32,956 nt of DNA from a virus, in the IMG/VR virus record IMGVR_UViG_3300023118_000023, positions 1 through 32,956 of that record. One strand, 5' to 3'. The stretch's first letter is position 1. Every line of letters begins with the position of its first letter. Shown in pieces: positions 14,030-30,319 of this stretch. The notes below the pieces were generated by a model. The model saw only the letters and a list, made by a program, of their open reading frames with translations. It made no database searches and was not told the DNA's origin. Both the position numbers and the translations under genes were made by a program.

Positions 14030-14030
14030 T

Positions 14031-16160: not shown

Positions 16161-16449
16161 TCCCTATGTGGTGATGAAGTCACCCGAAGAGCTCAATGTG
16201 GGTGACATCTTTGCCTACAGCACCATCCCAGACAGTCCGTACCTTTGCACTGGGAAGTCCCAGAAGAATGGACGGACATACTGGAAGTTAGATGGGTGGC
16301 TTCCACACTCGAAGTCTTGGACCACTCTCACTGGTGAGTTCGACGAGTTTGGATGGTGGTCAAGATCTGGGGTACAGAATCATCGGTTGTATTCCTCTGA
16401 AATCCCTTATGATCCTAACGGAGAAGGAGAGACGGATGACGACATATAA
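16123..16449 (+). CDS. Tailed SH3-like protein 1
   Basis: 108 residues from the ATG at 16123 (AAGGA eight bases upstream, inside the previous gene); GTG 16168 or ATG 16174 are alternatives without ribosome sites. LNVGDIFAYSTIPD and the following short strands fit a small SH3-like barrel. The last 15 residues are IPYDPNGEGETDDDI, the shared tail in its N-G-E-G-E form. The start of the GNAT gene lies within the tail codons (ATG at 16436), and the GAAGGAGA codons for E-G-E give its ribosome site. Function unknown; see the tail finding. Confidence 0.75.
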   Translation: MTLRPTHIPGPDDPYVVMKSPEELNVGDIFAYSTIPDSPYLCTGKSQKNGRTYWKLDGWLPHSKSWTTLTGEFDEFGWWSRSGVQNHRLYSSEIPYDPNGEGETDDDI

Positions 16450-16828
16450 CTGGAGTCGTGGAATAGGGTCGACCATAACCGCTGTCCATGACCATGGGCT
16501 TGCCTACATGACAGAAATTCCGGGGACTGCATTCTGTTACCACATCAGTCATTCAAATGTCGTTCCCACACACAGGGGTAAAGGTCTCGGTTCGTTGTAT
16601 CACCGGGAACGTTTGGACCACATTGAGACACTCGGTGCAACCCTAGCGACTTGTGTCGTCAACAAGAATAACGTAGCTGAAATCAAAATCCTCCAAAGGA
16701 ATGGGTGGAAGTTTCTTCATGAGTTTCCTGACAAGGAAAGAGAAGAGACCCTCATCCTTTGTTGTCGTGATATCGGTGAAGTTCCCTATAAAGCGGATCA
16801 ACAAGGGGAGAGTGAGAATGACATATGA
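16436..16828 (+). CDS. GNAT acetyltransferase with C-terminal tail
   Basis: 130 residues. The acetyl-CoA-binding motif NVVPTHRGKGLGSLYHRERL (about 41-60, R-G-K-G-L-G) and the later NKNNVAEIKILQRNGWKFLHEF (N-x-x-A then G-W) are typical GNAT features. GNAT enzymes acetylate or, in some lines, transfer aminoacyl groups. The C-terminus is VPYKADQQGESENDI, the shared tail with K-A in place of D-P. It is the only protein with a recognisable enzyme fold that carries the full-length tail. The next gene starts inside the tail codons at 16818. Confidence 0.85.
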   Translation: MTTYNWSRGIGSTITAVHDHGLAYMTEIPGTAFCYHISHSNVVPTHRGKGLGSLYHRERLDHIETLGATLATCVVNKNNVAEIKILQRNGWKFLHEFPDKEREETLILCCRDIGEVPYKADQQGESENDI

Positions 16829-16967
16829 TCTGAGGAACCTCGACTATGTGGCTCAGTCTACTATCGAGGGTCGTTCCTTAAGGACTGTCTCATTTGAGAG
16901 GATCAAAGAGATTGTCAAGAGGGCAAAAGAAGAAAGGGTAACCAAATGGTCCGTTACACAACAATAA
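16818..16967 (+). CDS. Small helical protein
   Basis: 49 residues: a short N-terminal part (TYDLRNLDYVAQ) and a basic amphipathic helix (SFERIKEIVKRAKEERV). The start lies in the tail codons of the GNAT gene, behind AAGGGGAG. It has no tail of its own. It overlaps the lipoprotein gene by 22 bases. No function assigned. Confidence 0.6.
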   Translation: MTYDLRNLDYVAQSTIEGRSLRTVSFERIKEIVKRAKEERVTKWSVTQQ

Positions 16968-17230
16968 TAGGGTTGACTTCTGTGTTAGCCCTCGTTGGTT
17001 GTGATGAAATCAGATCAGCCAAGGTCATGGTTGATCAAGAGTTGAGGACAAAACTCTTTAATGAGTGCCTATCCTCTGTCCCTGCCGGTCCATTGGTGAC
17101 AAAATACAATGACTGGGATGAAGTCGTCGACTCCTGTAGTTCATCTGCATATAACAGAAGTCTCTACTGTGTCGCTGATTGTGATGCCAAGTACAACTCA
17201 ATTCCGATGAGGGAAGAACTGAAGAAGTGA
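16946..17230 (+). CDS. Small lipoprotein
   Basis: 94 residues. A short signal peptide (VRYTTIIGLTSVLALVGC) ends in a clear lipobox L-V-G-C, so cleavage by signal peptidase II and anchoring by Cys-19 are expected. Asp directly follows the Cys, which in enterobacteria is the retention signal for the inner membrane; whether that holds in this host is unknown. The mature part has five Cys that could form disulfides. AAAGGG precedes the ATG by seven bases. It could be an outer-membrane spanin-like or an exclusion lipoprotein, but nothing specific supports either. Confidence 0.7.
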   Translation: MVRYTTIIGLTSVLALVGCDEIRSAKVMVDQELRTKLFNECLSSVPAGPLVTKYNDWDEVVDSCSSSAYNRSLYCVADCDAKYNSIPMREELKK

Positions 17231-17298
17231 GGATTTGTTTTTAATGCCTAAGGACCTCGTACTGGTCTAGTGGCCTTGTCCTTTACCTTCTAAGCTTA

Positions 17299-17327
17299 AT
17301 TATCCCACACTTTTTGCCTCTTGTCAA
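17299..17327 (-). promoter_or_regulatory. Antisense sigma70-type promoter
   Basis: On the minus strand TTGACA (17322-17327) and GATAAT (17299-17304) are separated by exactly 17 bases, with GTGG before and TAA after the -10 box, similar to the window's other promoters. It points leftward, against all genes of 8-17 kb. The 140-base gap that holds it (17231-17371) also has an AAGGAC/GTCCTT dyad on its left side. No rightward promoter of similar quality is visible in the gap. Confidence 0.6.
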
Positions 17328-17371
17328 GTCAAGGGGTTCTGACAAATATTTTCAACATTAAAGAGGCTATT

Positions 17372-18037
17372 ATGGCTATTGTTCATTCTGGTGTAGCAAC
17401 CGTGTGCACCGCATCCCATCTGACCAACTGGCATATCCCAGGTTTGGGTAGTGACGACCCGAAGACGAATGTCAACACGAAGCTCCAGACGGTGAACGAA
17501 CTCATCGCCCTTGGCTTCAAGCGTGACTTTGCTCTTCTCGAAGTCATCATCACAGACACTCAGCGGAAGGCCAACAAACTTGACGACTTCCTTCCGAAGA
17601 TTGGCTTCAAGCTGGTGTTCGAAGGCTCGAAGGGTATCGACAAAACCACACAGAGACACCAAGAGACCGGTGACCTCTCTGCCTGGATGACGGACCCTGC
17701 GACATACGAGAAGTCCCTCGTGTCGTACAAGGAAGAGCTCATTGCTCTTAAGGACAAGATCGACCCCCCGAAGAAACCCGACCCCAAGCGCCTCGCCATC
17801 GAGGACCTCAAGTGGAACCATCTGGTCAAGGCCGGTATGATCCAGCCAAACTCCAAGGTCGCCAACCCCCTGTGTGACATTCTTCTTGTCAAGCCTGAGG
17901 TCTTCCTCAAGTTCGTCAAGATCAAGTATGGCATGGATATCACCCGACAGGTCAAGACGGCCTCTGGTGACTGGACCCGTGTCACTACTCGTCAACTCAA
18001 GGATGCACACACAGCATGGAAAAACGAGCTCTTCTAG
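17372..18037 (+). CDS. Unknown protein of the amide-bond cluster
   Basis: 221 residues from the ATG at 17372, behind AAAGAGG. The N-terminal 110 residues are mixed alpha/beta (ALGFKRDFALLEVIITDTQRKANKLDDFLPKIGFKLVFEGS); the R-K-A-N...F-L-x-K-I-G-F order recalls the last helix-strand pair of GNAT folds, but an acetyl-CoA loop is not evident. A Lys/Pro/Asp-rich linker (KIDPPKKPDPKR) follows and then a helical C-terminal part. First gene after an intergenic gap and the first of the series that includes the ligases. No tail. Family not recognised. Confidence 0.75.
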   Translation: MAIVHSGVATVCTASHLTNWHIPGLGSDDPKTNVNTKLQTVNELIALGFKRDFALLEVIITDTQRKANKLDDFLPKIGFKLVFEGSKGIDKTTQRHQETGDLSAWMTDPATYEKSLVSYKEELIALKDKIDPPKKPDPKRLAIEDLKWNHLVKAGMIQPNSKVANPLCDILLVKPEVFLKFVKIKYGMDITRQVKTASGDWTRVTTRQLKDAHTAWKNELF

Positions 18038-18276
18038 ACCCAGTCGTCTGCATCGATAACAAACGGATTTACCTATCTCCGTTCTGGGATGACAGAACAA
18101 GTGTATGTGGCTTTGAGATTGGTTCTGTCTATTACCCAACGGCAGAAGACGGCTCTTGCTATCTGTTTGTCGATAGTCATGGTAATGGCATCTGGCTAGG
18201 CAAGAAGAGGTTCGTCCCTCATGTCGAGACACCGTATGACCCCAACCAACAGGGTGAGACAGATGACGACATTTAA
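18016..18276 (+). CDS. Tailed small protein 2
   Basis: 86 residues. The ATG at 18016 lies within the last codons of the previous gene. The fold appears beta-rich (KRIYLSPFWDDRTSVCGFEIGSVYY, SCYLFVDSHGNGIWLG), with less of the G-D-x-V signature than its relatives. It ends TPYDPNQQGETDDDI, the Q-Q-G-E form of the tail. The next gene starts at 18263, inside the tail codons. Confidence 0.75.
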   Translation: MEKRALLDPVVCIDNKRIYLSPFWDDRTSVCGFEIGSVYYPTAEDGSCYLFVDSHGNGIWLGKKRFVPHVETPYDPNQQGETDDDI

Positions 18277-18514
18277 CGTCGGTACCCAAGTACAATACAA
18301 CCGAAAACACGACCGCCTCTACAATGGTTCTGTAGGGACAGTCATCTCCCAGAGGGGTGATAGAGTTAATGTAGACTGGCACTCTGGTGAGGTCCGTAAA
18401 TTTGCTGAGAGATTTCATGGAGGTACACTATACGTGGTTGACGACCGCAATCTTGTATCTCTTGAAATTCCATATGACCCCCACGGTGAAGGAGAAACGG
18501 ATGACGACATTTAA
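18263..18514 (+). CDS. Tailed SH3/KOW-like protein 3
   Basis: 83 residues, starting within the previous tail. TFNVGTQVQYNRKHD, SVGTVISQRGDRVNVDWHSG and LYVVDDRNLVSL show the five-strand layout of a small SH3/KOW barrel (V-G-x-x-V, then G-T-V, then V-x-V-D-W). The tail is IPYDPHGEGETDDDI. Chained with the next gene by a start at 18501 inside its tail codons. Confidence 0.8.
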   Translation: MTTFNVGTQVQYNRKHDRLYNGSVGTVISQRGDRVNVDWHSGEVRKFAERFHGGTLYVVDDRNLVSLEIPYDPHGEGETDDDI

Positions 18515-18749
18515 GAAGGGTGATCGTGTTCGTATCAAGACTATCCCTCTCTTAGAGAATAGTGGTCGAGTCCTGCCTGATGCCGGTAAGACTGGTGTCA
18601 TCAGTAGTAAGTATGGCGGCGGGTATGATGCTTGGCATGTCACATTTGATGGTGATGACTTCGAGAGCGGAAGATACACTTGGGCAATCGAGCTCGATGA
18701 AATCCCATATGACCCCAATGGGGAAGGAGAAACAGAAAATGACATCTAA
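18501..18749 (+). CDS. Tailed SH3/KOW-like protein 4
   Basis: 82 residues. TFKKGDRVRIKTIPLL, KTGVISSKYGGGYDAWHVTFDGDDF and RYTWAIELDE give the barrel strands: G-D-R-V-R, T-G-V-I, then W-H-V-x-F. The tail is IPYDPNGEGETENDI. The start of the class I amidotransferase gene lies in its tail codons at 18739, so the tail gene and the enzyme are translated in a coupled way. Confidence 0.8.
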   Translation: MTTFKKGDRVRIKTIPLLENSGRVLPDAGKTGVISSKYGGGYDAWHVTFDGDDFESGRYTWAIELDEIPYDPNGEGETENDI

Positions 18750-19344
18750 AAAGGTGTTTATTGTAGGCCAAGATCGTGTGGTCACAAGCATGTGGTATGT
18801 CAAGGGATTCAACATCGTCAGCGAACAGAACGATGCCGATATCCTTTGCTTCATCGGTGGCTCTGACATCAATCCGAGCTACTATAATCAGCGTGTCAAC
18901 CCTGACGCCAAGGTCCATATTCATGCGGCGTCTGACACTCGGGACGAGAATGCATGGAAAGCTAAGAAGCCTCGTCAACTCGCCGTTGGTATCTGCCGTG
19001 GTGGCCAGTTCATCAATGTCATGTCGGGCGGTAAGATGCTCCAGCATGTCGACAACCACACGACGTCCCATCAGGTGTTCGACACACTCTGGAACTCGAC
19101 ACCTGTCGTCGCTTCTTCTCACCACCAGCTCATGGTTCCGGGTGAAGGTGCCGAAGTCCTCGCCTATTCCGAAGGTCGGATCAAGACAGCGATGAATGAT
19201 AAGGGCCAGGTTCAACCACCCCAGTTCGAGTCGGAAGTCCTGTTCTATGAGAGCACAAACTCTCTCTGCTATCAGGGTCATCCCGAGTGGCATCCACAGT
19301 CAGGGACCGACTACTTCTTCAAACTCATCGATCAGGTGGCGTGA
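18739..19344 (+). CDS. Class I glutamine amidotransferase (gamma-glutamyl hydrolase-like)
   Basis: 201 residues. The nucleophile elbow is GICRGGQF with Cys-86, and the His-Glu pair is in QGHPEWHP (H181, E183), completing the triad. CFIGGSDINPSYY near residue 40 is the oxyanion-strand region typical of the gamma-glutamyl-GABA hydrolase (C26) branch. Such enzymes release ammonia from glutamine or cut gamma-glutamyl amides. The start lies in the tail codons of the previous gene. It has no tail itself and ends KLIDQVA. Its stop overlaps the next start (TGATG). Confidence 0.85.
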   Translation: MTSKKVFIVGQDRVVTSMWYVKGFNIVSEQNDADILCFIGGSDINPSYYNQRVNPDAKVHIHAASDTRDENAWKAKKPRQLAVGICRGGQFINVMSGGKMLQHVDNHTTSHQVFDTLWNSTPVVASSHHQLMVPGEGAEVLAYSEGRIKTAMNDKGQVQPPQFESEVLFYESTNSLCYQGHPEWHPQSGTDYFFKLIDQVA

Positions 19345-19577
19345 TGGACGAGTTTCCTCTTGTACTGGAAAGTGTGTCCACAGGAAATGTCTACCGCTTC
19401 ATTAATTCGAGCACAGGTTTGTGTCTCAGTCTTGGTGATGATCATGGTGGTACTCGTGTAGTCGGTAGGCTTTACAAAGATCTATATCCTGTTGATCATC
19501 CAAACTGGATACGAGTGGAACCTGAACTCATCCCGTATGATCCAACCCAACAAGGGGAGACTGAGGATGATATTTAA
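19344..19577 (+). CDS. Tailed small protein 5
   Basis: 77 residues, beta-rich (FPLVLESVSTGNVYRFINSS, LCLSLGDDHGGTRVVGRLY). It lacks a strict G-D-x-V start but has a comparable strand pattern. It ends IPYDPTQQGETEDDI. The ATG overlaps the stop of the class I amidotransferase gene, and the next gene starts within its tail codons at 19567. Confidence 0.75.
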   Translation: MDEFPLVLESVSTGNVYRFINSSTGLCLSLGDDHGGTRVVGRLYKDLYPVDHPNWIRVEPELIPYDPTQQGETEDDI

Positions 19578-19809
19578 GAAAGGTGACAGGGTCAGATACA
19601 ACCTTACTCAGTTCCCAGGGTTGGGCTTTAGTGAGTACCGTGCTGGCCACGAGGGGACTGTTATGTCAAGTGACTTCTCTGACACCAGAGTGACGTGGGA
19701 CATTCCACACAAGGGTGTTACACAGAGTGGTCACTACACAAAGAATTTCCAATTGGCCGAAGTGCCATACGATCCGACACAGCAAGGTGAAACCGATGAC
19801 GATATCTAA
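19567..19809 (+). CDS. Tailed SH3/KOW-like protein 6
   Basis: 80 residues. IFKKGDRVRYNLTQF, HEGTVMSSDFSDTRVTWDI and HYTKNFQLAE show the barrel signature. The tail is VPYDPTQQGETDDDI. The next start, of the 301-residue unknown protein, is inside the tail codons at 19796. The upstream ribosome site AAGGGGAG also codes for part of the previous tail. Confidence 0.8.
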   Translation: MIFKKGDRVRYNLTQFPGLGFSEYRAGHEGTVMSSDFSDTRVTWDIPHKGVTQSGHYTKNFQLAEVPYDPTQQGETDDDI

Positions 19810-20701
19810 GCGCGACTTCCTGACCCTCAAGGGTATCTCGTACATCATCTATACCGATGGTGGCATTCAGAACGTACGTGAGAACCAGCCGTGCTACGGT
19901 GAACTTCGTAAGTACGAGAAGACCCATCCGGGTGAGTGCACACAACCTGCCAATGCAAAACCTGGTGACCTCCATTCTCCGTTCCCGGCGGGTACACCCA
20001 CGATGCTGGAGGTTCCGTTCTTCACCAGTACCTATGGTGCGTCCACCCCTTCCGAAGCGACAGACAAGCTCTTCCTTGCCTTCTTTGGTGTCACATCACC
20101 TTGGTTGGCTGGCTTTGGTGAAGTCGAATTCGTCAAGGGTTCCAAGGATCACATCGAGGGTATTCGTATCCCCGACCTTACCATTGACGCGACCGTCACG
20201 GTGAACTCATTCAAGAACTTTCGTCAGTGCCTCTCGAAGGCGACAGACTTCGTTGAACTCACCGAGGCTGGCCTGACGGGTAACGAGGCAATCGCCGTCA
20301 TGATGCTCAACGGTGGTGTCTCCTACAAGCAGGGTATCGCCAACACGAGTACCTATTCTGCCTGCAAGTACTTCTCTCCGAAGAGGTTCTTCCGTCAGAC
20401 ACCGAACGATCTCACGGGTGGTTTCCTCAAGGACCGTATCGACTACAACCGGACACTGATGCAGGACCCATTCCAAGGTTCTCTTGAGACTGGTGGTTGG
20501 GAGTGGAACACCAAGATGACGTCTCTCGGTCTGCCTCGCTATGGGACGGGAACCATTCAGACCAAGGACCTTGTTCCTATTGTCAAGAAAGCCTTCGGTG
20601 AGGGTCTCGACAATGAGCAGGAACCAGTCCTGACACCCTTCGTCTGGAAGACAACATCAGGGAAGACCCGCAATGAGCACACCATTTCAGCCGGGCGATA
20701 G
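19796..20701 (+). CDS. Unknown 301-residue protein of the amide-bond cluster
   Basis: No family recognised. It starts ISKRDFLTLKGISYIIYTDGGIQNVRENQPC and has two Cys near residues 33 and 49. GWEWNTKMTSLGLPRYGTGT lies in the C-terminal third, which is rich in Gly, Thr and aromatic residues. A segment of the centre (LTGNEAIAVMMLNGGVSYKQGIANTS) is helical and small-residue-rich. Codon use looks like that of the neighbouring enzymes, so a main-line function is likely, perhaps structural or as ligase partner. It is placed between tailed genes and has no tail. Its end overlaps the next gene by 29 bases. Confidence 0.75.
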   Translation: MTISKRDFLTLKGISYIIYTDGGIQNVRENQPCYGELRKYEKTHPGECTQPANAKPGDLHSPFPAGTPTMLEVPFFTSTYGASTPSEATDKLFLAFFGVTSPWLAGFGEVEFVKGSKDHIEGIRIPDLTIDATVTVNSFKNFRQCLSKATDFVELTEAGLTGNEAIAVMMLNGGVSYKQGIANTSTYSACKYFSPKRFFRQTPNDLTGGFLKDRIDYNRTLMQDPFQGSLETGGWEWNTKMTSLGLPRYGTGTIQTKDLVPIVKKAFGEGLDNEQEPVLTPFVWKTTSGKTRNEHTISAGR

Positions 20702-20915
20702 GGTCCGGTATAAAACCACAAAGACTGGTCCTTCTTATAACGAGAACATCGCCGGGACTGAGGGTGAAATCATAACCAGTGCCGATGACGGCTATGTCAT
20801 CAAACCCGACGACAAATTCCTTGGTCGTACTATGTGGTGCTGTTCGTACAATCTCGAACTTTGTGAAATGAAGTACGACCCTAATCAACAGGGCGAAACG
20901 GAAGAGGATATTTAA
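20673..20915 (+). CDS. Tailed SH3/KOW-like protein 7
   Basis: 80 residues. PFQPGDRVRYKTTKTGPSY, GTEGEIITSADDGYVIKPDD and MWCCSYNLELC fit the barrel. The tail is MKYDPNQQGETEEDI, with K for P before Y-D-P. The tail codons here contain no ATG; the next gene starts two bases after the stop. The tail is nevertheless kept, which argues that it is conserved as protein. Confidence 0.8.
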   Translation: MSTPFQPGDRVRYKTTKTGPSYNENIAGTEGEIITSADDGYVIKPDDKFLGRTMWCCSYNLELCEMKYDPNQQGETEEDI

Positions 20916-20916
20916 T

Positions 20917-22074
20917 ATGTGCGGCCATTTTGGATGCATGGGTCCCGGCATTGTCGGGAAAGACTTAGAGATCCTCGAACAGCTTGGCATCGTAAGCCAG
21001 CTCAGGGGTCGTGACGGGGCAGGTGTCTTCCAAGTGAGGTCGACTCGTTGGGGACACAACCAGAACACATACAGTGACGAGGCGCTCTACAAGACGTATA
21101 TGCCGTTCTCGTCAATGCTTCACGAGGTGGCTGGTCACAAGGAATACCAGAAGCGCGCCGTCCTGAACTCCATCCAAGTAGACGTCATCATGGGCCATGT
21201 CCGTGCATCGACGAAGGGTGTGATCTCTGACGGTAATGCCCACCCGTTCAACATGGTGAACATCGTCGGTGCCCACAACGGGACACTCAAGGATCAGAAG
21301 TATCTCGGTGATCCTCGTAAGACGGACAGTGAACTCATGTTCCGTGACATTGATACTCACGGACTCTCGACGACACTCAATCAGATGGACAACGACAGCG
21401 CCTTTGCCATCGTTCTCTATGACCGGACAGAGCGGGCAATGTTCTTCACGAGGAACGAACTTCGCACCCTTTCCTTTGCATTCATCAAGGGTCGTTCTGT
21501 CATGTACTGGGCGTCCGACAGTGACATGCTTCGTTATATCCTTCATCGGAATGGCGAGACAGACTACAAGATGTACCACCTGAGACCTCGTGTCGTCATC
21601 AAGATCAAGGCTTCTGACATCAACCAGTCCAAGTTCGATGACCCCCTCGAAGCCATGGAACTGACAGAAGACCTCACCATCGGTATCCCTACCATATGGA
21701 AGAAGATCTACGACGACCGTGAGAAGAAGCGTCTCGAAGAAGAGGCCAAGAAGAACGTCGTTGTCATCACACCTCCACCAGTCAATACGGAGGCGACAGG
21801 TCAGACTTCTTTTTTGGACAAGAAGGCTCCGGGTCCGAACCTCAAGGTCAAGAAGCAAGAGGTCCAGAAGGACACGGGGAAGTTCTCCCCGAAGGGCAGC
21901 TATACTCGCTGTGCCTGTGGCTCAACTACTTTGAACTTGTTGCAGGGGAACGTGGCAATGAGGGGTCTCCACAAGAGTGTGACCTACAACAAGACGTCTG
22001 ACACCTTCCATTGCGATTTGTGCAGGGAGGAACCTGGAAAGGAAATTCAGCATGAAGAACGGGCTGTTGGGTAA
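20917..22074 (+). CDS. Class II glutamine amidotransferase-like protein with zinc-ribbon-like C-terminus
   Basis: 385 residues. It begins with Met-Cys (MCGHFGCMGPG), so removal of Met leaves the N-terminal Cys nucleophile of class II (Ntn) amidotransferases. LRGRDGAGVF, GHVRASTKGVISDGNAHPF and GAHNGTL are the glutamine-binding and oxyanion segments. Residues up to about 240 form the Ntn domain. A charged linker follows, then CACGSTTLN...FHCDLC (about 325-370), which resembles a zinc ribbon. No synthase domain is fused, so the ammonia or glutamyl acceptor must be a partner, most simply one of the ligases nearby. No tail; ends EERAVG. Confidence 0.85.
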   Translation: MCGHFGCMGPGIVGKDLEILEQLGIVSQLRGRDGAGVFQVRSTRWGHNQNTYSDEALYKTYMPFSSMLHEVAGHKEYQKRAVLNSIQVDVIMGHVRASTKGVISDGNAHPFNMVNIVGAHNGTLKDQKYLGDPRKTDSELMFRDIDTHGLSTTLNQMDNDSAFAIVLYDRTERAMFFTRNELRTLSFAFIKGRSVMYWASDSDMLRYILHRNGETDYKMYHLRPRVVIKIKASDINQSKFDDPLEAMELTEDLTIGIPTIWKKIYDDREKKRLEEEAKKNVVVITPPPVNTEATGQTSFLDKKAPGPNLKVKKQEVQKDTGKFSPKGSYTRCACGSTTLNLLQGNVAMRGLHKSVTYNKTSDTFHCDLCREEPGKEIQHEERAVG

Positions 22075-22345
22075 GTTCAAAGTCGGTGATCGTGTCATTC
22101 TGACAGAGGATCAGAACTTCCACGGTAAAGGTATGACTGGTGTCATCATCGGAAATACTAGACACCTGTGGGGTATCCAGTTTGACACTAAACCTGATTG
22201 GGACGAGGCTCATGATTGTGGGTCGATGACGAATGGAAAGAGGGGTAAGGATGGTTGGTGCTGGTATGTAGATGCCAAAAGGCTCATGATCGCAGAAATT
22301 CCCTATGATCCTAACGGTGAGGGAGAAACCGATGAAGATATTTAA
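22052..22345 (+). CDS. Tailed SH3/KOW-like protein 8
   Basis: 97 residues, starting within the end of the class II amidotransferase gene. KFKVGDRVILTEDQNF, MTGVIIGNTRHLWGIQFD and WCWYVDAKRLMI give the barrel strands. The insert between the third and last strands is longer (DEAHDCGSMTNGKRGKDG). The tail is IPYDPNGEGETDEDI. The next start is inside it at 22332. Confidence 0.8.
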   Translation: MKNGLLGKFKVGDRVILTEDQNFHGKGMTGVIIGNTRHLWGIQFDTKPDWDEAHDCGSMTNGKRGKDGWCWYVDAKRLMIAEIPYDPNGEGETDEDI

Positions 22346-22586
22346 TATCGGTGATCGTGTTCTCTATAAGGATGAGTACTCCGAGACGGCAGACACTGGC
22401 ACTGTCTGTGAAATTCCTCCAGAATTCGTGAGCCCTAGTATGGAAAAGGCTGTTGAAACCGGGGCACGAGTTTGGGCTGACTGGGACGGCGATGGGTGTA
22501 AACTCTACTGTGACGCTAGGAATGTAAGTCACCTCGAAATCCAGTACGACCCGACACAACAAGGGGAGACTGACGATGACATATAG
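22332..22586 (+). CDS. Tailed SH3/KOW-like protein 9
   Basis: 84 residues. IFNIGDRVLYKDEYSET, DTGTVCEIPPEF and ARVWADWDGDGCKLYCDARNV fit the barrel. The tail is IQYDPTQQGETDDDI, with Q in place of P. The gene for the next tailed protein starts inside its tail codons at 22576. Confidence 0.8.
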   Translation: MKIFNIGDRVLYKDEYSETADTGTVCEIPPEFVSPSMEKAVETGARVWADWDGDGCKLYCDARNVSHLEIQYDPTQQGETDDDI

Positions 22587-23058
22587 GGATCGAAAGAAAC
22601 CTTGGGAGAGTCGTGAGAGGTTCCGGAAGGATGCCCAACGTGAGGTCAAGAAAAGAAACTTTGCGGCTCAGTACGGAGGTGGTCTTGCTTCTCTCAAAAG
22701 AAGGTGGGCCATGGTTGAAGAAGAACCCGAACTCGTCCTAGAAGAATTTACTTCTTGGGATCAGCTCAGTCCGGGTGATGAACTCATGTGGGTCGTAGAT
22801 GGTAAACCAAATGATGACTATCATATGGAATTTATCTCTAGGTTCTCATCTGATGGTTCATCTCAACTAATAAGGGCAAAGTACCTTTCGGGGTCTCCAG
22901 GCTGGGGTCTGCATCAGGGTCAAGAAGACGATGTAGATGCGAGGATCTACCCCGATAACACTGCAACCTGGGCTAATTCTGTACTAGGTTGGAAGCGTGT
23001 AGTGAAAGAAATCCCTTACGACCCTAATGGTCAAGGTGAAACGGAAGACGATATTTAA
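22576..23058 (+). CDS. Tailed protein 10, with basic N-terminal extension
   Basis: 160 residues, the longest of the small tailed proteins. The first 55 residues are strongly basic and helical (YRDRKKPWESRERFRKDAQREV). The remainder, LSPGDELMWVVDGKPNDDY then strands, looks like the SH3-like unit. The tail is IPYDPNGQGETEDDI. The following ligase gene starts 11 bases after its stop, so here too the tail is not needed to encode a start codon. The basic extension could bind nucleic acid. Confidence 0.75.
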   Translation: MTYRDRKKPWESRERFRKDAQREVKKRNFAAQYGGGLASLKRRWAMVEEEPELVLEEFTSWDQLSPGDELMWVVDGKPNDDYHMEFISRFSSDGSSQLIRAKYLSGSPGWGLHQGQEDDVDARIYPDNTATWANSVLGWKRVVKEIPYDPNGQGETEDDI

Positions 23059-23069
23059 AAGGTTTTAAA

Positions 23070-23786: not shown

Positions 23787-24060
23787 CAAGAAGCGTGGCG
23801 ATCAACTTATGGTGGGTGACATCGTCATTGGTGTCAACGAGAGTGTCTGGGATACCGAGTACGAAATTGTTCAGGTCAAGCAAGGCTGCCCAGGTGGTTC
23901 TGGGTCTCTCAATTTCCAACTATCTATCGTGAAGTCACCTAGACATAAGATGGGTAGTGTATACCCTTGGAATATCTTTCCAGAAACGACAGTTCTTGTC
24001 AAATTTTTAGAGATTCCATACGACCCCAATGGGGAAGGTGAAACAGAGGATGATATTTAA
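23767..24060 (+). CDS. Tailed SH3-like protein 11
   Basis: 97 residues from the ATG at 23767, inside the end of the ligase gene; an internal ATG at 23809 just before VGDIVIG is an alternative. VGDIVIGVNESV, YEIVQVKQG and FQLSIVKS suggest the barrel. The tail is IPYDPNGEGETEDDI. The stop shares a base with the next ATG (TAATG). Confidence 0.75.
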   Translation: MSSQDSNKKRGDQLMVGDIVIGVNESVWDTEYEIVQVKQGCPGGSGSLNFQLSIVKSPRHKMGSVYPWNIFPETTVLVKFLEIPYDPNGEGETEDDI

Positions 24061-24689
24061 TGCGTCAGAAGTATAAAGGCGAAGATATTAAGGCTCGTCT
24101 CCATAACACCATCATCCGTTATAAGGATGAACCATACCTTGCAGACGTCGACAGTGCCGGTACCATTGGTCTGAATGACCTCGCCTCTGGCACCTGCATC
24201 GGTCGTGTCTCTGCCGACGATGAACTCCTCGATATTTCGAGCATCAGTATCGGCTATGTGAACATCATCCACCCGGACTACAAACTCGCCGTCTACTTGA
24301 AGCGGGAGCCCTACCGGAAGTTCAAGCAGGGCATCGAGTTTCCTTCTCTGACACAGAAGGCTCTCCGTGATAACATCTCGGGTGTCTCTCACCATATCCT
24401 GCATTCGAAGCAGTTCGTCGATGCGGTACACGGGAAGTTTCCGTCCTACAAGGATGCATTCGACCTCCTGACCAAGAAGTCGTTCCACTCTGTGGCTGTC
24501 TCTCGTGACATTGCCCTCAAAAAGGAGCGTGACGTCCTCAAGGTTTACCTCAAGGATACCGAGGTCGGCTTCATCCGTCTGACGGGAGACCATAACAAGG
24601 TCTATGTCCCGAAGTCTGAACAGAGTTACTACTATATCCTTCTCCTTGACGGGATTAAGGATTGGACAATCATTGAAGGTGTCAAATGA
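24060..24689 (+). CDS. Unknown 209-residue protein between two ligases
   Basis: No family recognised. It has strands at the start (LHNTIIRYKDEPYLADVDSAG, TCIGRVSADDELLDISSISIGY), a helical middle (TQKALRDNISGVSHHILHSKQF), and a strand-rich end (VLKVYLKDTEVGFIRLTGD, YYYILLLDGIKDWTII). It overlaps the second ligase gene by four bases, and its start overlaps the stop of a tailed gene. Constant placement between the two GS-fold ligases would suggest a partner subunit or substrate; that is inference. No tail. Confidence 0.75.
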   Translation: MRQKYKGEDIKARLHNTIIRYKDEPYLADVDSAGTIGLNDLASGTCIGRVSADDELLDISSISIGYVNIIHPDYKLAVYLKREPYRKFKQGIEFPSLTQKALRDNISGVSHHILHSKQFVDAVHGKFPSYKDAFDLLTKKSFHSVAVSRDIALKKERDVLKVYLKDTEVGFIRLTGDHNKVYVPKSEQSYYYILLLDGIKDWTIIEGVK

Positions 24690-25732
24690 GCCAGCAAGTT
24701 TCTACAATTTATGACATCATGAGGTCCACCGGCAAGTACGGTGGTGATCGTCTTCGTGGTGAAGTCGGTGTCGAAATCGAGACAGAGACAGAGAAAGCCT
24801 ACGACTATCCCAAGATGAAGTTCTGGAATACGACGAAGGACAACTCTCTTCGTGACTTCGGTGTCGAGTACATCCTCAAGCAGCCGATGGACATTCCGGA
24901 CTTCGAGAAGGCCCTGTCTGAGTTCGACCTCGCAGAGAAGAAGTACAAGTTCCGCAAGGGCAGTATCTCCACCTCTGTCCACGTCCACTTGAACTTCCTC
25001 AACGACACGTACCTCACGATGGCTAACTTCGTGACTGCCTACGCCCTCGTTGAGAATCTCCTCATCAGGTACTCGGGTCCAGACCGTCTGTCGAACCTCT
25101 TCTGCCTCCCGATGTGTGACGCCGAGGGTGTCAAGGACCATATCGTCACTCTTCTGTCGTATGTCAACCGGAACATGTTCGCCAAGGTTTCCGTACCGGC
25201 AGAGAAGTGCAAGTATGGTGGCCTCAACCCTAGCCCACTGTCGACACTCGGTACTCTGGAAGTACGAACCTTCCGTGGCGAGACGGACACAAAGATCATT
25301 CTTCGGTGGATTGAAATCCTCATGAAGCTCAAGACCTTTGCCCGTCGTACCAACCTCACACCTGTCGACATCATGCATATGTGGAAAGACCACCGTGCAG
25401 GTATCCTCGATCTCATCTTCCATGAGTATGCCGCAGAGCTCCGTTGGAAGGACCCGAAGACCAAGAAGGATGTGACCGACGATCTGATCCGTCAGAACTT
25501 GAAGTTCGCAGCCGACTTCGCTTGTGTCTCCAAGGACTGGACGAAGTTTGGTCTACTCAAGATCAAGCCGGTCTACAAAGAGAAGTGCAAGGAAGCCCTC
25601 GACGAGATCGCCCAACGGAAGTTCAAGGGTCCGTTCGACAGTCTCCAGTATCAGGAACGTGTAGCCGTGATGGAGTCCTATCACAACCTCTACCCCAACC
25701 AGAAGATTGTCGACGCCGATGGAGACATTTGA
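24686..25732 (+). CDS. Amidoligase (GS-fold, Amidoligase_2-like)
   Basis: 348 residues. The active-site strands are GEVGVEIETE (about 25-34), STSVHVHLNF (about 95-104) and LEVRTFRG (about 191-198). Glu and His bind metal and the Arg binds phosphate, as expected for the family. Members are predicted to form amide bonds, for example between peptides and amino acids or amines. It follows a different GS-fold ligase and precedes an ATP-grasp ligase, so three ligases are co-produced. It ends KIVDADGDI: the last four residues equal the end of several tails (S-D-G-D-I), and the next gene starts inside those codons at 25719, but Y-D-P and G-E are missing. Confidence 0.88.
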   Translation: MSQQVSTIYDIMRSTGKYGGDRLRGEVGVEIETETEKAYDYPKMKFWNTTKDNSLRDFGVEYILKQPMDIPDFEKALSEFDLAEKKYKFRKGSISTSVHVHLNFLNDTYLTMANFVTAYALVENLLIRYSGPDRLSNLFCLPMCDAEGVKDHIVTLLSYVNRNMFAKVSVPAEKCKYGGLNPSPLSTLGTLEVRTFRGETDTKIILRWIEILMKLKTFARRTNLTPVDIMHMWKDHRAGILDLIFHEYAAELRWKDPKTKKDVTDDLIRQNLKFAADFACVSKDWTKFGLLKIKPVYKEKCKEALDEIAQRKFKGPFDSLQYQERVAVMESYHNLYPNQKIVDADGDI

Positions 25733-26021
25733 TCAGTACGGGCTGATAGAACTCACCGACCCTTCTCAACTAGATATTGGCACAAAGATAGTCGCCAATG
25801 TTTGGTTGGGTAAAGAAACCATGTACGGTTACTACGAAATGACCAGTGGTTGGGATGGCTCTGAAATAGCAATGACCTATCATGCCCCTGACGGTTCGAC
25901 CTTCAACTCCAATTTTGGTAGCGGTGGTTGTAAGAGACAGACCAATATCTGGTGGTACGTAATCAATGAAGAAATGCCTTATGACCCTAATGGGGAAGGC
26001 GAAACTGATCAAGACATTTAG
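25719..26021 (+). CDS. Tailed SH3-like protein 12
   Basis: 100 residues. LDIGTKIVANVWLG, YGYYEMTSGW and SEIAMTYHAPDGSTF are barrel-like strands. The tail is MPYDPNGEGETDQDI. The next gene (ATP-grasp) starts ten bases after the stop with its own GGAGA site, so no start codon is embedded in the tail. Confidence 0.78.
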   Translation: METFDQYGLIELTDPSQLDIGTKIVANVWLGKETMYGYYEMTSGWDGSEIAMTYHAPDGSTFNSNFGSGGCKRQTNIWWYVINEEMPYDPNGEGETDQDI

Positions 26022-26030
26022 GAGATAACA

Positions 26031-26843
26031 ATGTCTATTACTGCGATGTTTGCATACAATATGGCTTCCGAAGGTGGTAAGGCTCTTGCTGATGCACTGA
26101 GCATCCCACGTATCAAGCACACCGGCTCGAAGTTCGTCGGTGCATCCTCCAAGACCATCCTCAACTGGGGTGCCACGACAGACAGGTTCTCTGCCCAGTC
26201 TGCATCTTGGATGAACTGCCGTCTGCTCAACCCACCGGCTCGTGTCGATGTGGCTGTCGACAAGGTTCGTGCCTTCGAAGCATTCCGTGCGGGTAACGTT
26301 TCGATCCCCGAGTTCACGACAGACAAGAACACTGCCAAGGCTTGGTGTGAAGCAGGTTCCATGGTCTTTGCGAGGACACAGCTTCGTGCCCACTCTGGTC
26401 GTGGTATCGTCATCATGGACCCTGACTTCCCTGAGACTTTCGAGAACCAGTCGGCACCCCTCTTCGTCAAGTATATCCCAAAGAAGGATGAGTATCGTGT
26501 CCACGTCCTCCGTGGGAATGTCATCGACGTACAGCGTAAGGGACTCAAGGCTGAACTCAAGGGTACGGAAGGTGTCAACTTCAAGATCCGTAACCTGGCC
26601 AACGGCTTTGTCTACACCCGGTTTGACAACAACAACATTCCTCTGATCGACAGCCCACGAGTACCGACTGCCGTCAAGACTGTTGGCATCGCTGCCGTCA
26701 ACGCTCTGGGTCTCGACTTCGGTGCTGCCGACATCATCTTCAACGAGAAGTCTGGTCAGGCATACTGCCTCGAAGTCAACACTGCACCGGGCCTGACTGG
26801 CACGACTGTCGAGAACTATGCCAATGCCATGGCAGCCCTCTGA
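26031..26843 (+). CDS. ATP-grasp carboxylate-amine ligase
   Basis: 270 residues, RimK-like layout. DKVRAFEAFRAGNVSIPEF (about 78-95) is the first ATP-grasp helix, PLFVKYIPKKDEYRVHVLRGNVIDVQRK (about 143-170) the nucleotide-binding centre, and LGLDFGAADIIFNEKSGQAYCLEVNTAPGL (about 227-255) the metal-binding D-x-x...E-x-N motif. The extreme N-terminus is shorter than in free-standing ligases. Such enzymes activate a carboxylate as acyl phosphate and join it to an amine, as when glutamates are added to a protein C-terminus. No tail; ends YANAMAAL. The stop overlaps the next ATG. Confidence 0.9.
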   Translation: MSITAMFAYNMASEGGKALADALSIPRIKHTGSKFVGASSKTILNWGATTDRFSAQSASWMNCRLLNPPARVDVAVDKVRAFEAFRAGNVSIPEFTTDKNTAKAWCEAGSMVFARTQLRAHSGRGIVIMDPDFPETFENQSAPLFVKYIPKKDEYRVHVLRGNVIDVQRKGLKAELKGTEGVNFKIRNLANGFVYTRFDNNNIPLIDSPRVPTAVKTVGIAAVNALGLDFGAADIIFNEKSGQAYCLEVNTAPGLTGTTVENYANAMAAL

Positions 26844-27106
26844 TGAGAAGGATTGTCTACGGAGATATCCGGGAGGGCGATCTCCTAGAGGTGGTACAAG
26901 GGTCTCGGATAGGTGAAACTGTAACTGCATTCTTCTCTCAAAGACACACAGCGAGGAATGCTTTGAAGGGTCAGATCACCGTCCGAGTGACAGACTATCA
27001 ATATCTCGATGATCAGAATTGCCATGGATGGGATGCTTCGTATTTCCAACTGGCTGAAATTCCCTACGACCCTACACAACAGGGCGAAACTGAGGACGAT
27101 ATTTAA
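26843..27106 (+). CDS. Tailed SH3-like protein 13
   Basis: 87 residues. DIREGDLLEVVQGSRI, GETVTAFFSQRHT and GQITVRVTDYQYL are the barrel strands. The tail is IPYDPTQQGETEDDI. The start overlaps the stop of the ATP-grasp gene, and the stop shares a base with the next ATG (TAATG). Confidence 0.78.
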   Translation: MRRIVYGDIREGDLLEVVQGSRIGETVTAFFSQRHTARNALKGQITVRVTDYQYLDDQNCHGWDASYFQLAEIPYDPTQQGETEDDI

Positions 27107-28290
27107 TGTGTGTAATCTTCCATTTTACTCCAGGTTCTACATTCAACAAGGGACAGTTCTTTAACGCTGTCCACAATAACTGGCACGGCTATGGTCTCAT
27201 CCTTGTCGATGGGAACAACCATATGGCACCAGTCATCAAGGGGTTCGACGAGAACGGTACAGACCCAGAAGTGCTTTGGAAGCTCATTGAAGAGAACAAG
27301 GATATCGATCGGTATCTCCATATCCGTCATTCCACCAAGGGTGCATCAGACGAGACAAACGTCCAGCCGTTCCCTGTGTACAACTCGACGAACCGTGACG
27401 TCTTCTTCATGCACAACGGGACGCTGAGTACCTTTGGTGGTTCCTATCAGAACTCCACTGGTAAGTCTGACACTCTCGACTTCTGTGAGAAGATCCTTCA
27501 ACCGGCTCTCCTTCGTTGGGCTGGTGAGAACGGTAAGGGTGACTATACCGGGGATGAGTTCTGGCGTCTCGTCGTAGAGAAGCAGTGGCAGTCAGGCTCC
27601 ACGGGTCTCTTCGTGTCCAACGATCTACCTCCGAAGCGTATCGGTGGGGGATGGTCGGAATACAAACACCCGGACGAAAGTTCTGAGGGTGTCATCTGGG
27701 TTTCGAACACTTCCTATTTCGAGAAGGTGTCGCGTGGACCGATGTTTCAAAAGCTTGAGGACGAGCGCAAGGCAAGAGAAGCGGCACAAAAAGCAGCGCA
27801 AGAACAAGCCAAAAAGACATCGGGGGTGGTAGAAGAGAATGCCCCTTTTCGCAATTCGCCTACTTGGGAGGATCTGCAGGACGACGAGCTGGCACTGAGC
27901 TACGGCCATTGGCAGGGTGGGGTGCGGAGTGGCAACTTCTCTCAGACAGACCCGAGTGGTAGGGGCATCCGGAAGTTCGAGGAAGGTAATGCCGCCAAGT
28001 CTCAGAAGCTCATCAAGGCCATGTCTGACCTCGCAGACCGTTGGGACTTTGAAGACCCGAATGATCTCAAAGAAATGACTGCTCTGACCTTTGACGAATG
28101 GTGGGAATGGATCGAAGCAGAAGAGACTTGGACCATCGCCGCATTCCTCGGTCATATCTCTGAACACGTCAGTAAGCTGGCTCTCCACAACCGTTTCCTC
28201 GACCGTACAAAGAGGAAGGCAGAGACCCGTATCATCGCACTACAGAAGGAACTCGACAGTGATCGTAAGACAACCTCGAAAGCCGCTTGA
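27106..28290 (+). CDS. Second class II glutamine amidotransferase-like protein
   Basis: 394 residues. Met-Cys start (MCVIFHFTPG), then YLHIRHSTKGASDETNVQPFPV and FMHNGTLSTFGG, the standard Ntn amidotransferase segments; the domain ends near residue 205. The C-terminal half has an Ala/Lys/Glu-rich coiled part (KARKAREA-like, about 222-245) and a helical domain rich in Trp and Glu (FDEWWEWIEAEETW, about 340-353). It differs from the first copy, which has a zinc-ribbon-like end, so the two probably serve different partners. No tail; ends KTTSKAA. Confidence 0.82.
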   Translation: MCVIFHFTPGSTFNKGQFFNAVHNNWHGYGLILVDGNNHMAPVIKGFDENGTDPEVLWKLIEENKDIDRYLHIRHSTKGASDETNVQPFPVYNSTNRDVFFMHNGTLSTFGGSYQNSTGKSDTLDFCEKILQPALLRWAGENGKGDYTGDEFWRLVVEKQWQSGSTGLFVSNDLPPKRIGGGWSEYKHPDESSEGVIWVSNTSYFEKVSRGPMFQKLEDERKAREAAQKAAQEQAKKTSGVVEENAPFRNSPTWEDLQDDELALSYGHWQGGVRSGNFSQTDPSGRGIRKFEEGNAAKSQKLIKAMSDLADRWDFEDPNDLKEMTALTFDEWWEWIEAEETWTIAAFLGHISEHVSKLALHNRFLDRTKRKAETRIIALQKELDSDRKTTSKAA

Positions 28291-28873
28291 GTATGACCCT
28301 TGGCAGGTCCTCAAAGACTCTCGTAGTCACACACCAGACTGGAGGGAACTCAAGAACTCTCCCTATGACGAATTCCATATCTTTGTCACAGGGAACCTCC
28401 GGAAGTTCTGGCCTAAGAATGCACTACTAGAGGGGTGCCACTACTACGGAACTGGCATCTCTTTCCATGACAACTTCATCATGAAGAAGACCAACATTCA
28501 GTCGTCAGACAGGGCCGCCCAACCAGAACCCCTGACCTTCATGCTCGACAAACCAGACTGGTCAAAGTTGAGGTCCATCGGTCTTCTTCCGAATATGACG
28601 AAGCATGTCGAGGGTGACGTCTATGGTGTCCCTCTCCGTAAGATGGCACAGCTTGACAGGTATGAAGGCAACACCGACATGGTTGTCCGACAGAAGACTT
28701 GGATCAAGTTGATGGAACCCATACAGGACGGCAAGAGGGTCAAGTGCTTCATGTGGACAATCCAGACTGACGAGTACAGTCAGGCATTCACCGGTGCTGA
28801 GAGTTCTGTCTGCCGTGCTTCTCAGAGGTGTGACGAAGACGGAGGTTTCCTTGACACATACTACTACGCCTAA
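28259..28873 (+). CDS. Second gamma-glutamylcyclotransferase-like protein
   Basis: 204 residues from a GTG at 28259, with AGAAGGA seven to ten bases upstream. FHIFVTGNLRKFWPKNALLEGCHYYGTG corresponds to the YGxL substrate loop and first strands, and GDVYGVPLRKMAQLDRYEGNTD to the strand and helix with the catalytic Glu (LDRYEG). An insert of about 25 residues (MLDKPDWSKLRSIGLLPN) is not typical. It is longer than the first copy at 15744 and has about 30 extra N-terminal residues. It ends FLDTYYYA without a tail. The two copies bracket the ligase cluster. Confidence 0.78.
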   Translation: MIVRQPRKPLEYDPWQVLKDSRSHTPDWRELKNSPYDEFHIFVTGNLRKFWPKNALLEGCHYYGTGISFHDNFIMKKTNIQSSDRAAQPEPLTFMLDKPDWSKLRSIGLLPNMTKHVEGDVYGVPLRKMAQLDRYEGNTDMVVRQKTWIKLMEPIQDGKRVKCFMWTIQTDEYSQAFTGAESSVCRASQRCDEDGGFLDTYYYA

Positions 28874-29120
28874 ATTAGAGGTTGGTGACAAAGTCTACCT
28901 CTCAGTTGCTGGACGAAGTGGTGGATTCGCTGAAATTCTGAACTTTGAGAATGATAGGGGTACACTCATGGCCGAAGTTGAGTGGGAAGATGGTTGTCGT
29001 GTTGCAAAGACACTTAGAAAGGTCTTCGCTAGGCACAGTCTTGCATACCTTATTTTAGAAGAAAAAGCTTTTCAACCATACGATCCTCTTCAACAAGGAG
29101 AGGAAGACGGAGATATTTAA
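28851..29120 (+). CDS. Tailed SH3/KOW-like protein 14
   Basis: 89 residues from a TTG at 28851 with GGAGG five bases upstream; no better start is available. LEVGDKVYLSVAGRSGG, AEILNFENDRGTLMAEVEWEDG give the barrel. The tail is QPYDPLQQGEEDGDI, the most divergent version, with E-D-G in the variable part. The stop shares a base with the next ATG. Confidence 0.75.
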   Translation: MTHTTTPKLEVGDKVYLSVAGRSGGFAEILNFENDRGTLMAEVEWEDGCRVAKTLRKVFARHSLAYLILEEKAFQPYDPLQQGEEDGDI

Positions 29121-29470
29121 TGGCTCAATTTAAGACTGGTGAGTATGTAAGATACACCAATAAGAATGAGAAGGCTGACATCATGGGCCTTGTGATTGCT
29201 CGTCAGTGGGACAGTCACCTCATCATGATTGACGACGGGTCTAATTTTGGGAGTCTCTACATCCCACCAAATCCCACAGTCCATCCCACCCATGGCAGTG
29301 TCGACCGGAGTTACTTCGTGAAGAGAAATCCTGCCAATGAATACGACAAGTCTCTGTGCCCCAAAGACAAGACCAAGAGATACATCTGGATTGGTAAGAG
29401 TAAGAATCTCGTCTCTGGGATCATCCCTTATGACCCTACACAGCAAGGAGAAAGTGATGGAGATATTTAA
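29120..29470 (+). CDS. Tailed SH3/KOW-like protein 15
   Basis: 116 residues. QFKTGEYVRYTNKNEK, IMGLVIARQWDSHLIMIDDG and SLYIPPNPTVHP are barrel strands, with a long insert (about 55-95) including a His/Pro-rich loop. The tail is IPYDPTQQGESDGDI. The next gene starts within the tail codons at 29457. Confidence 0.78.
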   Translation: MAQFKTGEYVRYTNKNEKADIMGLVIARQWDSHLIMIDDGSNFGSLYIPPNPTVHPTHGSVDRSYFVKRNPANEYDKSLCPKDKTKRYIWIGKSKNLVSGIIPYDPTQQGESDGDI

Positions 29471-29765
29471 GAGAGTCCATCAGTGGTTCCTTCTCAAAAG
29501 GGGTCGTGGTCCTAAGTTTGAGGTCGGTGATCATGTCAGACATATCTTCTGGTACCCAGGGTATAAAGACGATGGTGTAGTGACTAAGGTTTGGTTCGAC
29601 TATAAGATCTACTGGGCTTGGAGATATAAAGTCGAGTGGGATCGTGGCTATATGGATTTCGACTACGGGACAAGTGAAGACTGGCTTACCTTTCTAAAGA
29701 AGGGTGAACCTGAGTTTCTTCCCTATGATCCTCAGCAACAAGGTGAATCAGATGGAGACATTTAA
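29457..29765 (+). CDS. Tailed SH3/KOW-like protein 16
   Basis: 102 residues. A short basic N-terminal helix (IFKRVHQWFLLKRGRGPK) precedes FEVGDHVRHIFWYPGYKDDGVV and YKVEWDRGYMDFD, the barrel. The tail is LPYDPQQQGESDGDI. The next gene starts within its tail codons at 29752. Confidence 0.78.
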   Translation: MEIFKRVHQWFLLKRGRGPKFEVGDHVRHIFWYPGYKDDGVVTKVWFDYKIYWAWRYKVEWDRGYMDFDYGTSEDWLTFLKKGEPEFLPYDPQQQGESDGDI

Positions 29766-30012
29766 GGTAGGTGACCGTCTTGATATTACCTCATGGTGGG
29801 GTCCAGTCAAGGGTAAACCTGCAATTGGAACTATCGTAAAGATGATCCCAGGTAAGTACGGTGGTGTCGGCCTCCACATCGATGGTCATGGGACATATCA
29901 ACCAGAGGACTATCATATCCTCGGCTGGAAGATCATCGAAAGAGAGGGCATCACCTACCAGATGCTTGAGTACGATCCTAACGGTGAAGGAGAAACGGAT
30001 GACGACATATAA
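29752..30012 (+). CDS. Tailed SH3/KOW-like protein 17
   Basis: 86 residues. TFKVGDRLDITSWWG, AIGTIVKMIPGKYGGVGLHIDGHG and the later YHILGWKII give the barrel. The tail is LEYDPNGEGETDDDI, with E for P before Y-D-P. The next gene starts within its tail codons at 29999. Confidence 0.8.
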   Translation: METFKVGDRLDITSWWGPVKGKPAIGTIVKMIPGKYGGVGLHIDGHGTYQPEDYHILGWKIIEREGITYQMLEYDPNGEGETDDDI

Positions 30013-30319
30013 TCTCGGTGACATCGTCACTGTGTATTCAGACGATTGGGGTGCCGAAGAAGACGATGACAAAGAAATCTATACCGGAGAGATCGTCATC
30101 AACAATGACCATGGTATGGGTATCAAAGTGATAGACCCTGTGGACTTCGAAGGTGGTCATGCTCTTCAATACTATGAGGAGGGTGGTGTAGTCAGTCCTA
30201 TGTCTGATGAAGACTATGAGAAGGGTTGGTGGATCAGTCCAGAAGAAATCCTCTCGCATACCCCAAAAGAAATCCCTTACGACCCTAATGGTGAGGGTGA
30301 GACGGACACCGATATTTAA
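29999..30319 (+). CDS. Tailed SH3/KOW-like protein 18, last of the series
   Basis: 106 residues. TYNLGDIVTVYSDDWG, YTGEIVINNDHGMGIKVID and ALQYYEEGG fit the barrel, with an acidic insert. The tail is IPYDPNGEGETDTDI. It is followed by a promoter rather than a coupled gene, so nothing but the protein end can select for the tail here. With the GNAT protein at 16436 this makes 19 tailed proteins. Confidence 0.8.
   Translation: MTTYNLGDIVTVYSDDWGAEEDDDKEIYTGEIVINNDHGMGIKVIDPVDFEGGHALQYYEEGGVVSPMSDEDYEKGWWISPEEILSHTPKEIPYDPNGEGETDTDI

Follow-up and report, generated by a model that had tools for sequence, protein, structure and literature searches.

Why should 19 different proteins of one virus end in the same short peptide? 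This question is raised by the IMG/VR virus record IMGVR_UViG_3300023118_000023, whose 32,956 bases form the whole stretch analyzed here (the window). Between 16.1 and 30.3 kb, 19 plus-strand open reading frames (ORFs) share the ending Y-D-P-x4-E-[TS]-[DE]-x-D-I, which is anchored at the stop codon. An earlier note on the window had described such a tail, and its statements about individual residues hold for all 19 ORFs. Y(-13), G(-7), E(-6), D(-2) and I(-1) are invariant (19/19), which confirms the claim that the last two residues and their distance from the stop are constant. One of the tails reads YKADQQGESENDI. The proteins are as follows (the second coordinate marks the end of the ORF):

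Tail protein 1: 16123..16449, + strand, 108 residues, or 91 if started at 16174; end PYDPNGEGETDDDI
Tail protein 2: 16436..16828, + strand, GNAT acetyltransferase-like body (phrog_1249 acetyltransferase, E 4e-4); end PYKADQQGESENDI
Tail protein 3: 18016..18276, + strand; end PYDPNQQGETDDDI
Tail protein 4: 18263..18514, + strand, SH3-like; end PYDPHGEGETDDDI
Tail protein 5: 18501..18749, + strand, SH3/KOW-like (modelled); end PYDPNGEGETENDI
Tail protein 6: 19344..19577, + strand; end PYDPTQQGETEDDI
Tail protein 7: 19567..19809, + strand, SH3-like; end PYDPTQQGETDDDI
Tail protein 8: 20673..20915, + strand, SH3-like; end KYDPNQQGETEEDI
Tail protein 9: 22052..22345, + strand; end PYDPNGEGETDEDI
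Tail protein 10: 22332..22586, + strand, SH3-like; end QYDPTQQGETDDDI
Tail protein 11: 22576..23058, + strand, 160 residues; end PYDPNGQGETEDDI
Tail protein 12: 23767..24060, + strand; end PYDPNGEGETEDDI
Tail protein 13: 25719..26021, + strand; end PYDPNGEGETDQDI
Tail protein 14: 26843..27106, + strand; end PYDPTQQGETEDDI
Tail protein 15: 28851..29120, + strand, start uncertain; end PYDPLQQGEEDGDI
Tail protein 16: 29120..29470, + strand, SH3-like; end PYDPTQQGESDGDI
Tail protein 17: 29457..29765, + strand; end PYDPQQQGESDGDI
Tail protein 18: 29752..30012, + strand; end EYDPNGEGETDDDI
Tail protein 19: 29999..30319, + strand, final gene of the array; end PYDPNGEGETDTDI

Shared endings of this kind rarely arise by chance: at control positions and on the reverse strands of 169 loci, clusters had at most 5 members, as against 20 in the window. 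The Asp-Ile-stop pattern occurs in the DNA of the window 18 times on the forward strand and once on the reverse. The tail is a real, protein-level and lineage-specific C-terminal tag.

The tail codons overlap the Shine-Dalgarno-like stretch of the next gene, and often its start codon as well, so a cause at the DNA level needed testing. In the overlap GGAGAAACGG-ATG-ACGACATTTAA, for example, one frame reads ...GETDDDI-stop and the next one MTTF. Tail codon pairs that encode the same residue differ in a fraction of 0.550, compared with 0.514 (95% range 0.462–0.558) for random draws from the codon usage of this genome. In the genomes of group 1, one of two main groups of tail-bearing phages, the proportion of synonymous differences in the tail (pS) is 0.7–1.1 and that of nonsynonymous differences (pN) is 0.07–0.20, and pN/pS is near 1 at positions 20 residues upstream; the members were picked by amino acid motif, which biases pN low and leaves pS unaffected. 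By a heuristic choice of start codons, the next gene begins at -14, -11, -1, 0, +1, +9 or farther, always with the same stop-anchored peptide. After the last tail gene, which ends at 30319, comes a promoter-like TTGACT...TATAAT (sigma70-like) and no overlapping gene; tail arrays in relatives end similarly, with promoter- or terminator-like sequence next. Enzyme genes of the same operon have no tail despite their overlapping followers. Since synonymous tail codons vary as in a random choice and the next starts lie at many distances, selection acts on the tail as protein.

Related phages with the same amide-ligase cassette (listed below) also encode sets of small proteins of this kind, and the ending common to a set differs from genome to genome. 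In the Rhizobium phages RHph_N3_19 and I3_11, about 13–15 proteins end in YDPNQTGDTEDDI or close forms, and about 14 proteins of Sinorhizobium phage phiM6 end in YRVDQEPMEDEETL. The corresponding endings are LENE in Citrobacter phage CVT22 (about 18 proteins), LENK in Klebsiella phage Asterion (13) and LLEENV in Salinivibrio phage CW02 (8). Loci from IMG/VR and genome collections add YDPxQQPDEEDDV, QENE, F[KR]GN, FKGNK, PEIYEEWFK and EFTDEEYEELLV; YDPTQxGDTDDDI and FTDEEYEELLV also belong to the genome-specific endings. In cassette phages, small proteins of this one class bear at least 8 tail forms. An acidic peptide with a hydrophobic last residue is found in group 1, in LEENV and in locus L346, but not in LENE, LENK or FKGN; FKGN and FKGNK have no acidic residue, and the terminal residues across tails are I, V, L, E, K and N. 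The Asp-Ile ending emphasized in the earlier note, present in all 19 proteins here, is therefore only the version of this lineage.

Within group 1 genomes, tail identity is 0.58–0.89. Between these genomes, tails on reciprocal-best bodies are on average about 0.6 identical, a value that random pairs drawn across genomes reach as well. In group 2 genomes, a hidden Markov model (HMM) of the bodies, built without tails, finds homologous SH3-like bodies that bear unrelated tails. Because of these two results we assign the tail to the genome rather than to the protein lineage; within one genome the tails evolve together, whereas the bodies diverge. Recent gene conversion of tail DNA was rejected as the cause, as synonymous sites are saturated. 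In other cassette phages, groups of small ORFs (L144 1822–2523, L146 4007–4410, L081 5711–6557 and L143 4296–5098) have the common C-terminal stretches GDVVEITF, REYTLSQLQELCK and EEDKxIIGxALCL, which are possibly more tails or recent duplications.

The bodies that carry the tail are mostly small and SH3/KOW-like, with one exception, the GNAT acetyltransferase. In an AlphaFold2 model of tail protein 5 (18501–18749), the body forms an SH3/KOW-like barrel with a predicted local confidence (pLDDT) of about 90, and the last 12 residues are disordered (about 50–61). The nearest structures to this body are ribosomal L21e, the KOW domains of NusG/Spt5 and phage YorP, all weak matches (E 2e-3 to 5e-2). 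The fold was seen in this one modelled body, and the others were assigned by HMM or motif only. Pfam assigns few of the other bodies (SH3_12 in 5 of 130, DUF4314 and DUF7448), and BLAST at 1e-3 links only one pair among the 19 bodies of the window. The tail-free body HMM detects SH3-like homologues in both main groups of tail genomes, but hardly any outside them. The earlier note would have given up its reading if the tail were the ordinary end of one domain family that occurs without the neighboring enzymes. This is not the case: the SH3-like bodies are found almost only in tail loci beside the cassette, and the unrelated GNAT fold is tailed too.

The tail genes are interleaved with a cassette of GS-fold-type ligases, a RimK-like ATP-grasp ligase, glutamine amidotransferases and gamma-glutamylcyclotransferase (GGCT):

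15744..16160, + strand: GGCT (GGACT/AIG2), E 4e-18; end MPYDPSTNTYSWPR
18739..19344, + strand: class I glutamine amidotransferase/Peptidase C26-like, no tail, E 2.8e-11; phrog_7218, E 6.7e-35
20917..22074, + strand: class II glutamine amidotransferase (GATase_6), no tail, E 1.1e-11
23070..23786, + strand: COOH.NH2 ligase (phiEco32-type), no tail; phrog_3815, E 1.5e-54
24060..24689, + strand: hyp209, conserved cassette protein, no tail, no recognizable fold match
24686..25732, + strand: Amidoligase_2 ligase, E 6.3e-6; C-terminus VDADGDI
26031..26843, + strand: RimK-like ATP-grasp ligase, candidate reader of the tail, no tail; RimK 5zct, E 2e-8 (profile A1)
27106..28290, + strand: second class II glutamine amidotransferase, no tail, E 3.9e-5
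28283..28873, + strand: second GGACT-domain protein, no tail, E 1.6e-7

A COOH.NH2 ligase, an Amidoligase_2 protein, an ATP-grasp ligase and glutamine amidotransferases thus stand side by side, as in the phage amide-ligase module of Iyer et al. 2009, for which roles in modifying host peptidoglycan or preventing superinfection have been proposed (cited in PMC6256558 and PMC10580990). Here, the same enzymes adjoin tailed proteins; the parts of PMC6256558 and PMC10580990 that describe the module mention neither small proteins with tails nor shared C-termini.

A 42-base tail pattern, run over 2.9 million viral contigs of IMG/VR, matched only in this clade, namely in five near-complete genomes with the cassette and in several fragments, most of them with the primase gene of the clade. 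Across about 85,000 genomes of bacteria and archaea, 21 matches to the ATP-grasp profile were obtained; all of them lie in metagenome-assembled records, which are probably phage contigs. A scan of IMG/VR with a single amidoligase sequence gave no match, but alignment queries did find matches. hyp209 is a core protein of the cassette, with homologues in more than 100 loci; its AlphaFold2 model (pLDDT 94.7) has no recognizable match among solved structures and offers no clue to a role as reader.

In most relative loci the cassette enzymes themselves have no tail. The Amidoligase_2 protein of the window, however, likewise terminates in D-G-D-I, without the Y-D-P part, and group 1 amidoligases in general end in [DE]-x-D-[IVL] or similar. 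Group 2 tail phages have an amidoligase that stops directly after the core, with no extension. Where cassette phages lack the tailed set, their amidoligase often has a C-terminal extension, and many of these are acidic with a hydrophobic end (NEPLEDY, DEPEDDF, EEGVPF). The C-terminus of the L072 amidoligase is common to another protein of that genome (SDIESILAELDNFI/ADIESILAELDNFI). A small CCGA-motif protein (L072 8654–9184, L031 10728–11216, L132 5211–5738) has a linker and then a C-terminal peptide in common with the amidoligase of its own genome, the linkers differing in sequence; in L072 and L031 its gene directly follows that of the ATP-grasp ligase. In L003, the amidoligase ending is shared with a 323-residue protein. 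Another ORF matched the amidoligase end in 17 of 162 loci (tail loci included), as against 5 at a control position. A common tail on an enzyme and on its neighbor favors docking. As a separate observation, the GGCT protein at 15744–16160 has P-Y-D-P in common with the tail at its terminus, and the remainder is absent.

What, then, does the tail do? The earlier note had suggested recognition by a partner that reads a C-terminus. This stands as the best inference, in view of peptide selection, anchoring at the carboxyl end and concerted change, but not as one tag valid across phages. Very probably a single partner reads the tail; one reader per genome is the simplest explanation, since the tail follows the genome. 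The tail would then be a lineage-specific address tag of 4–14 residues, flexible and exposed at the free carboxyl end, which marks mostly SH3/KOW-like early phage proteins for a common partner. That partner is most likely part of an amide-bond-forming complex of ATP-grasp ligase, COOH.NH2 ligase, amidoligase and amidotransferases, whose genes lie among those of the tailed proteins. Targets would differ among the fast-diverging bodies, whereas the constant tail would bring them all to the complex, where they would dock as clients or as exchangeable adaptors. As one reader would see all tails, reader and tails could drift together, giving each phage lineage its own common tail. To a reader within the amide-ligase complex, on which the tail docks, we give a probability of roughly 0.4.

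The association with the cassette bears on this placing of the reader, and several results weigh against it. Cassette genes are present in all loci with clear tail families that do not resemble ribosome-binding sites (RBSs), but since most loci were retrieved by way of cassette genes, co-occurrence in this direction is biased. Two less biased tests agree with the association, the pattern scan above and a set of 79 loci matched by primase. Among these 79, only one has the cassette and only L249 has a tail family, yet many of these cassette-free controls are short. Most cassette phages surveyed (PA11, O4, LUZ24 and others) have no tailed set, so the cassette does not require it; the set was not found in the regions inspected of phiEco32 (10–45 kb), LUZ24, PA11, O4, Slicky01 and Privateer, the phiEco32 stretch being without the cassette and of little weight. 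A shared amidoligase tail is evident in no more than three or four genomes, and although the own-genome mean score for such sharing lay above all 2000 shuffles, part of this signal may be common acidic composition. The charge of the tail correlates with that of the amidoligase (rho -0.63, p 0.004), but the split into two clades confounds this, as it does a correlation with class II glutamine amidotransferase; charge coevolution with cassette enzymes was accordingly not accepted. A search for genes present only in tail phages gave no reader candidate besides the SH3-like proteins, and the core cassette is the same with or without tailed proteins.

Four other explanations have to be weighed. Translational coupling could produce the shared ending as a side effect, with the tail codons also serving as Shine-Dalgarno sequence and start codon for the following gene. 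Most tails do contain purine-rich stretches of this type, many next genes begin inside or at the tail, and L249 (4734–8561, without the cassette) shows that RBS overlap alone can produce a weak common ending: its seven ORFs end in EEDDE, with a nearly invariant GATGAGTAA (GAGG..GATGAGTAA). L249 is a useful null example of a pure RBS effect. Coupling as the cause in the window is the least probable of the four and was rejected, given the free synonymous sites, the absence of a fixed geometry to the next start, the tails at array ends and the tailless enzyme genes described above. Hardly more credible is a plain inherited terminus of one paralogous SH3-like family. Many bodies are indeed SH3/KOW-like, and the body HMM joins part of them, but they diverge far more than the tails do, an acetyltransferase bears the tail too, and homologous bodies of other phages end in unrelated tails, that is, tails were replaced genome-wide. 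As a full explanation, paralogy was rejected on these grounds.

The remaining two accept a partner and differ from the docking reading in what it does or where it is. Covalent modification of the tail by a cassette ligase is a serious rival, if an unlikely one, because two ATP-grasp relatives, RimK and LysX, act on C-terminal tails of small proteins. Among solved structures, our ATP-grasp profile matches RimK best (E 2e-8), an enzyme that extends the RpsF C-terminus with glutamates (PMC10092738). LysW ends in EDWGE, which a motif of LysX recognizes, and LysX attaches an amino acid to the terminal Glu (PMC10433800). As in the RimK/RpsF pair, an ATP-grasp ligase of the same superfamily is encoded here together with small proteins that have free acidic C-termini, and as in LysW/ArgW, where LysX/ArgX reads it, a small protein has a short C-terminal motif. 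In addition, the tails lie at the exact C-terminus and are mostly acidic, and GGCT and peptidase-C26-like enzymes of the set could trim them. However, RimK has one substrate and no lineage-specific common tag, compared with about 20 tailed proteins here, and LysW/ArgW is a single zinc-binding carrier with a C-terminal Glu. The many SH3-like proteins of our phages end in I, V, L, E, K or N, the last residue in the window is I in 19/19, and no conserved Cys set for LysW-type zinc binding was found in the tail-protein sequences compared. Tail chemistry is inconstant (FKGN and FKGNK are non-acidic), 19 carriers per phage would be unusual, other lineages have the shared tail on the amidoligase itself, and the same enzymes occur in many phages without tailed proteins. 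We prefer docking because tails range from strongly acidic to FKGN, enzymes have shared tails in other lineages, and a single carrier reaction with some 20 substrates would be strange. More doubtful still is docking on something that the cassette does not encode, such as a host protein or the phage replisome. The C-terminal tip of single-stranded DNA-binding protein (SSB) and the tails of T7 gp2.5 and gp4 are flexible, acidic peptides with a hydrophobic end, found on several proteins that share common partners. Some tails here resemble them, the primase gene lies directly downstream of the tail genes, and the primase/helicase and Gp2.5-like protein of LUZ24 have such a common tip. These known tips, however, occur on one or two proteins per genome and serve DNA replication, whereas several tails here are non-acidic (LENK and FKGN are unlike SSB) and lie off replication proteins: the assignable bodies are SH3/KOW-like or GNAT, not single-stranded DNA-binding proteins. 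Furthermore, the primase/helicase of tail phages has no tail, and primase-matched relatives without the cassette have neither clear tails nor SH3-like proteins.

If the reader is indeed the ligase complex, the phage would encode its own system of protein tags or adaptors, and the drift of the code would be an example of natural coevolution of reader and tag. A bolder, rather improbable version is a plug-in system, in which at least 12 small SH3-like proteins that evolve fast and have one target each dock by a genome-specific code into one amide-ligase complex that modifies whatever they bring; the code would drift, and parts would not be interchangeable between phages. The tail bears on two old unknowns, the target of the amide-ligase module and the role of many small "hypothetical" early proteins. 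Short C-terminal tags on several proteins are known, but we found no description of one that is present on about 10–20 proteins of one phage, wholly different between relatives and placed beside amide-forming enzymes. The earlier note likewise knew of no such phage tail, and our literature search on shared C-terminal tails in phages agrees, although this is weak evidence of absence.

Two minor observations concern neighboring genes and relatives. In LUZ24 (L170), the common acidic tip of the primase/helicase and the Gp2.5-like protein (13453–15162 and 20375–20929) reads DEVPADDDTPI and DEVFDDEDAPI, and L106 and L161 have weaker versions of it. Just before the cassette of the window, at 14031–15742, a PnuC-like transporter gene and a NadR-like gene are adjacent; as read from their sequences, they are possibly an NAD-salvage pair.

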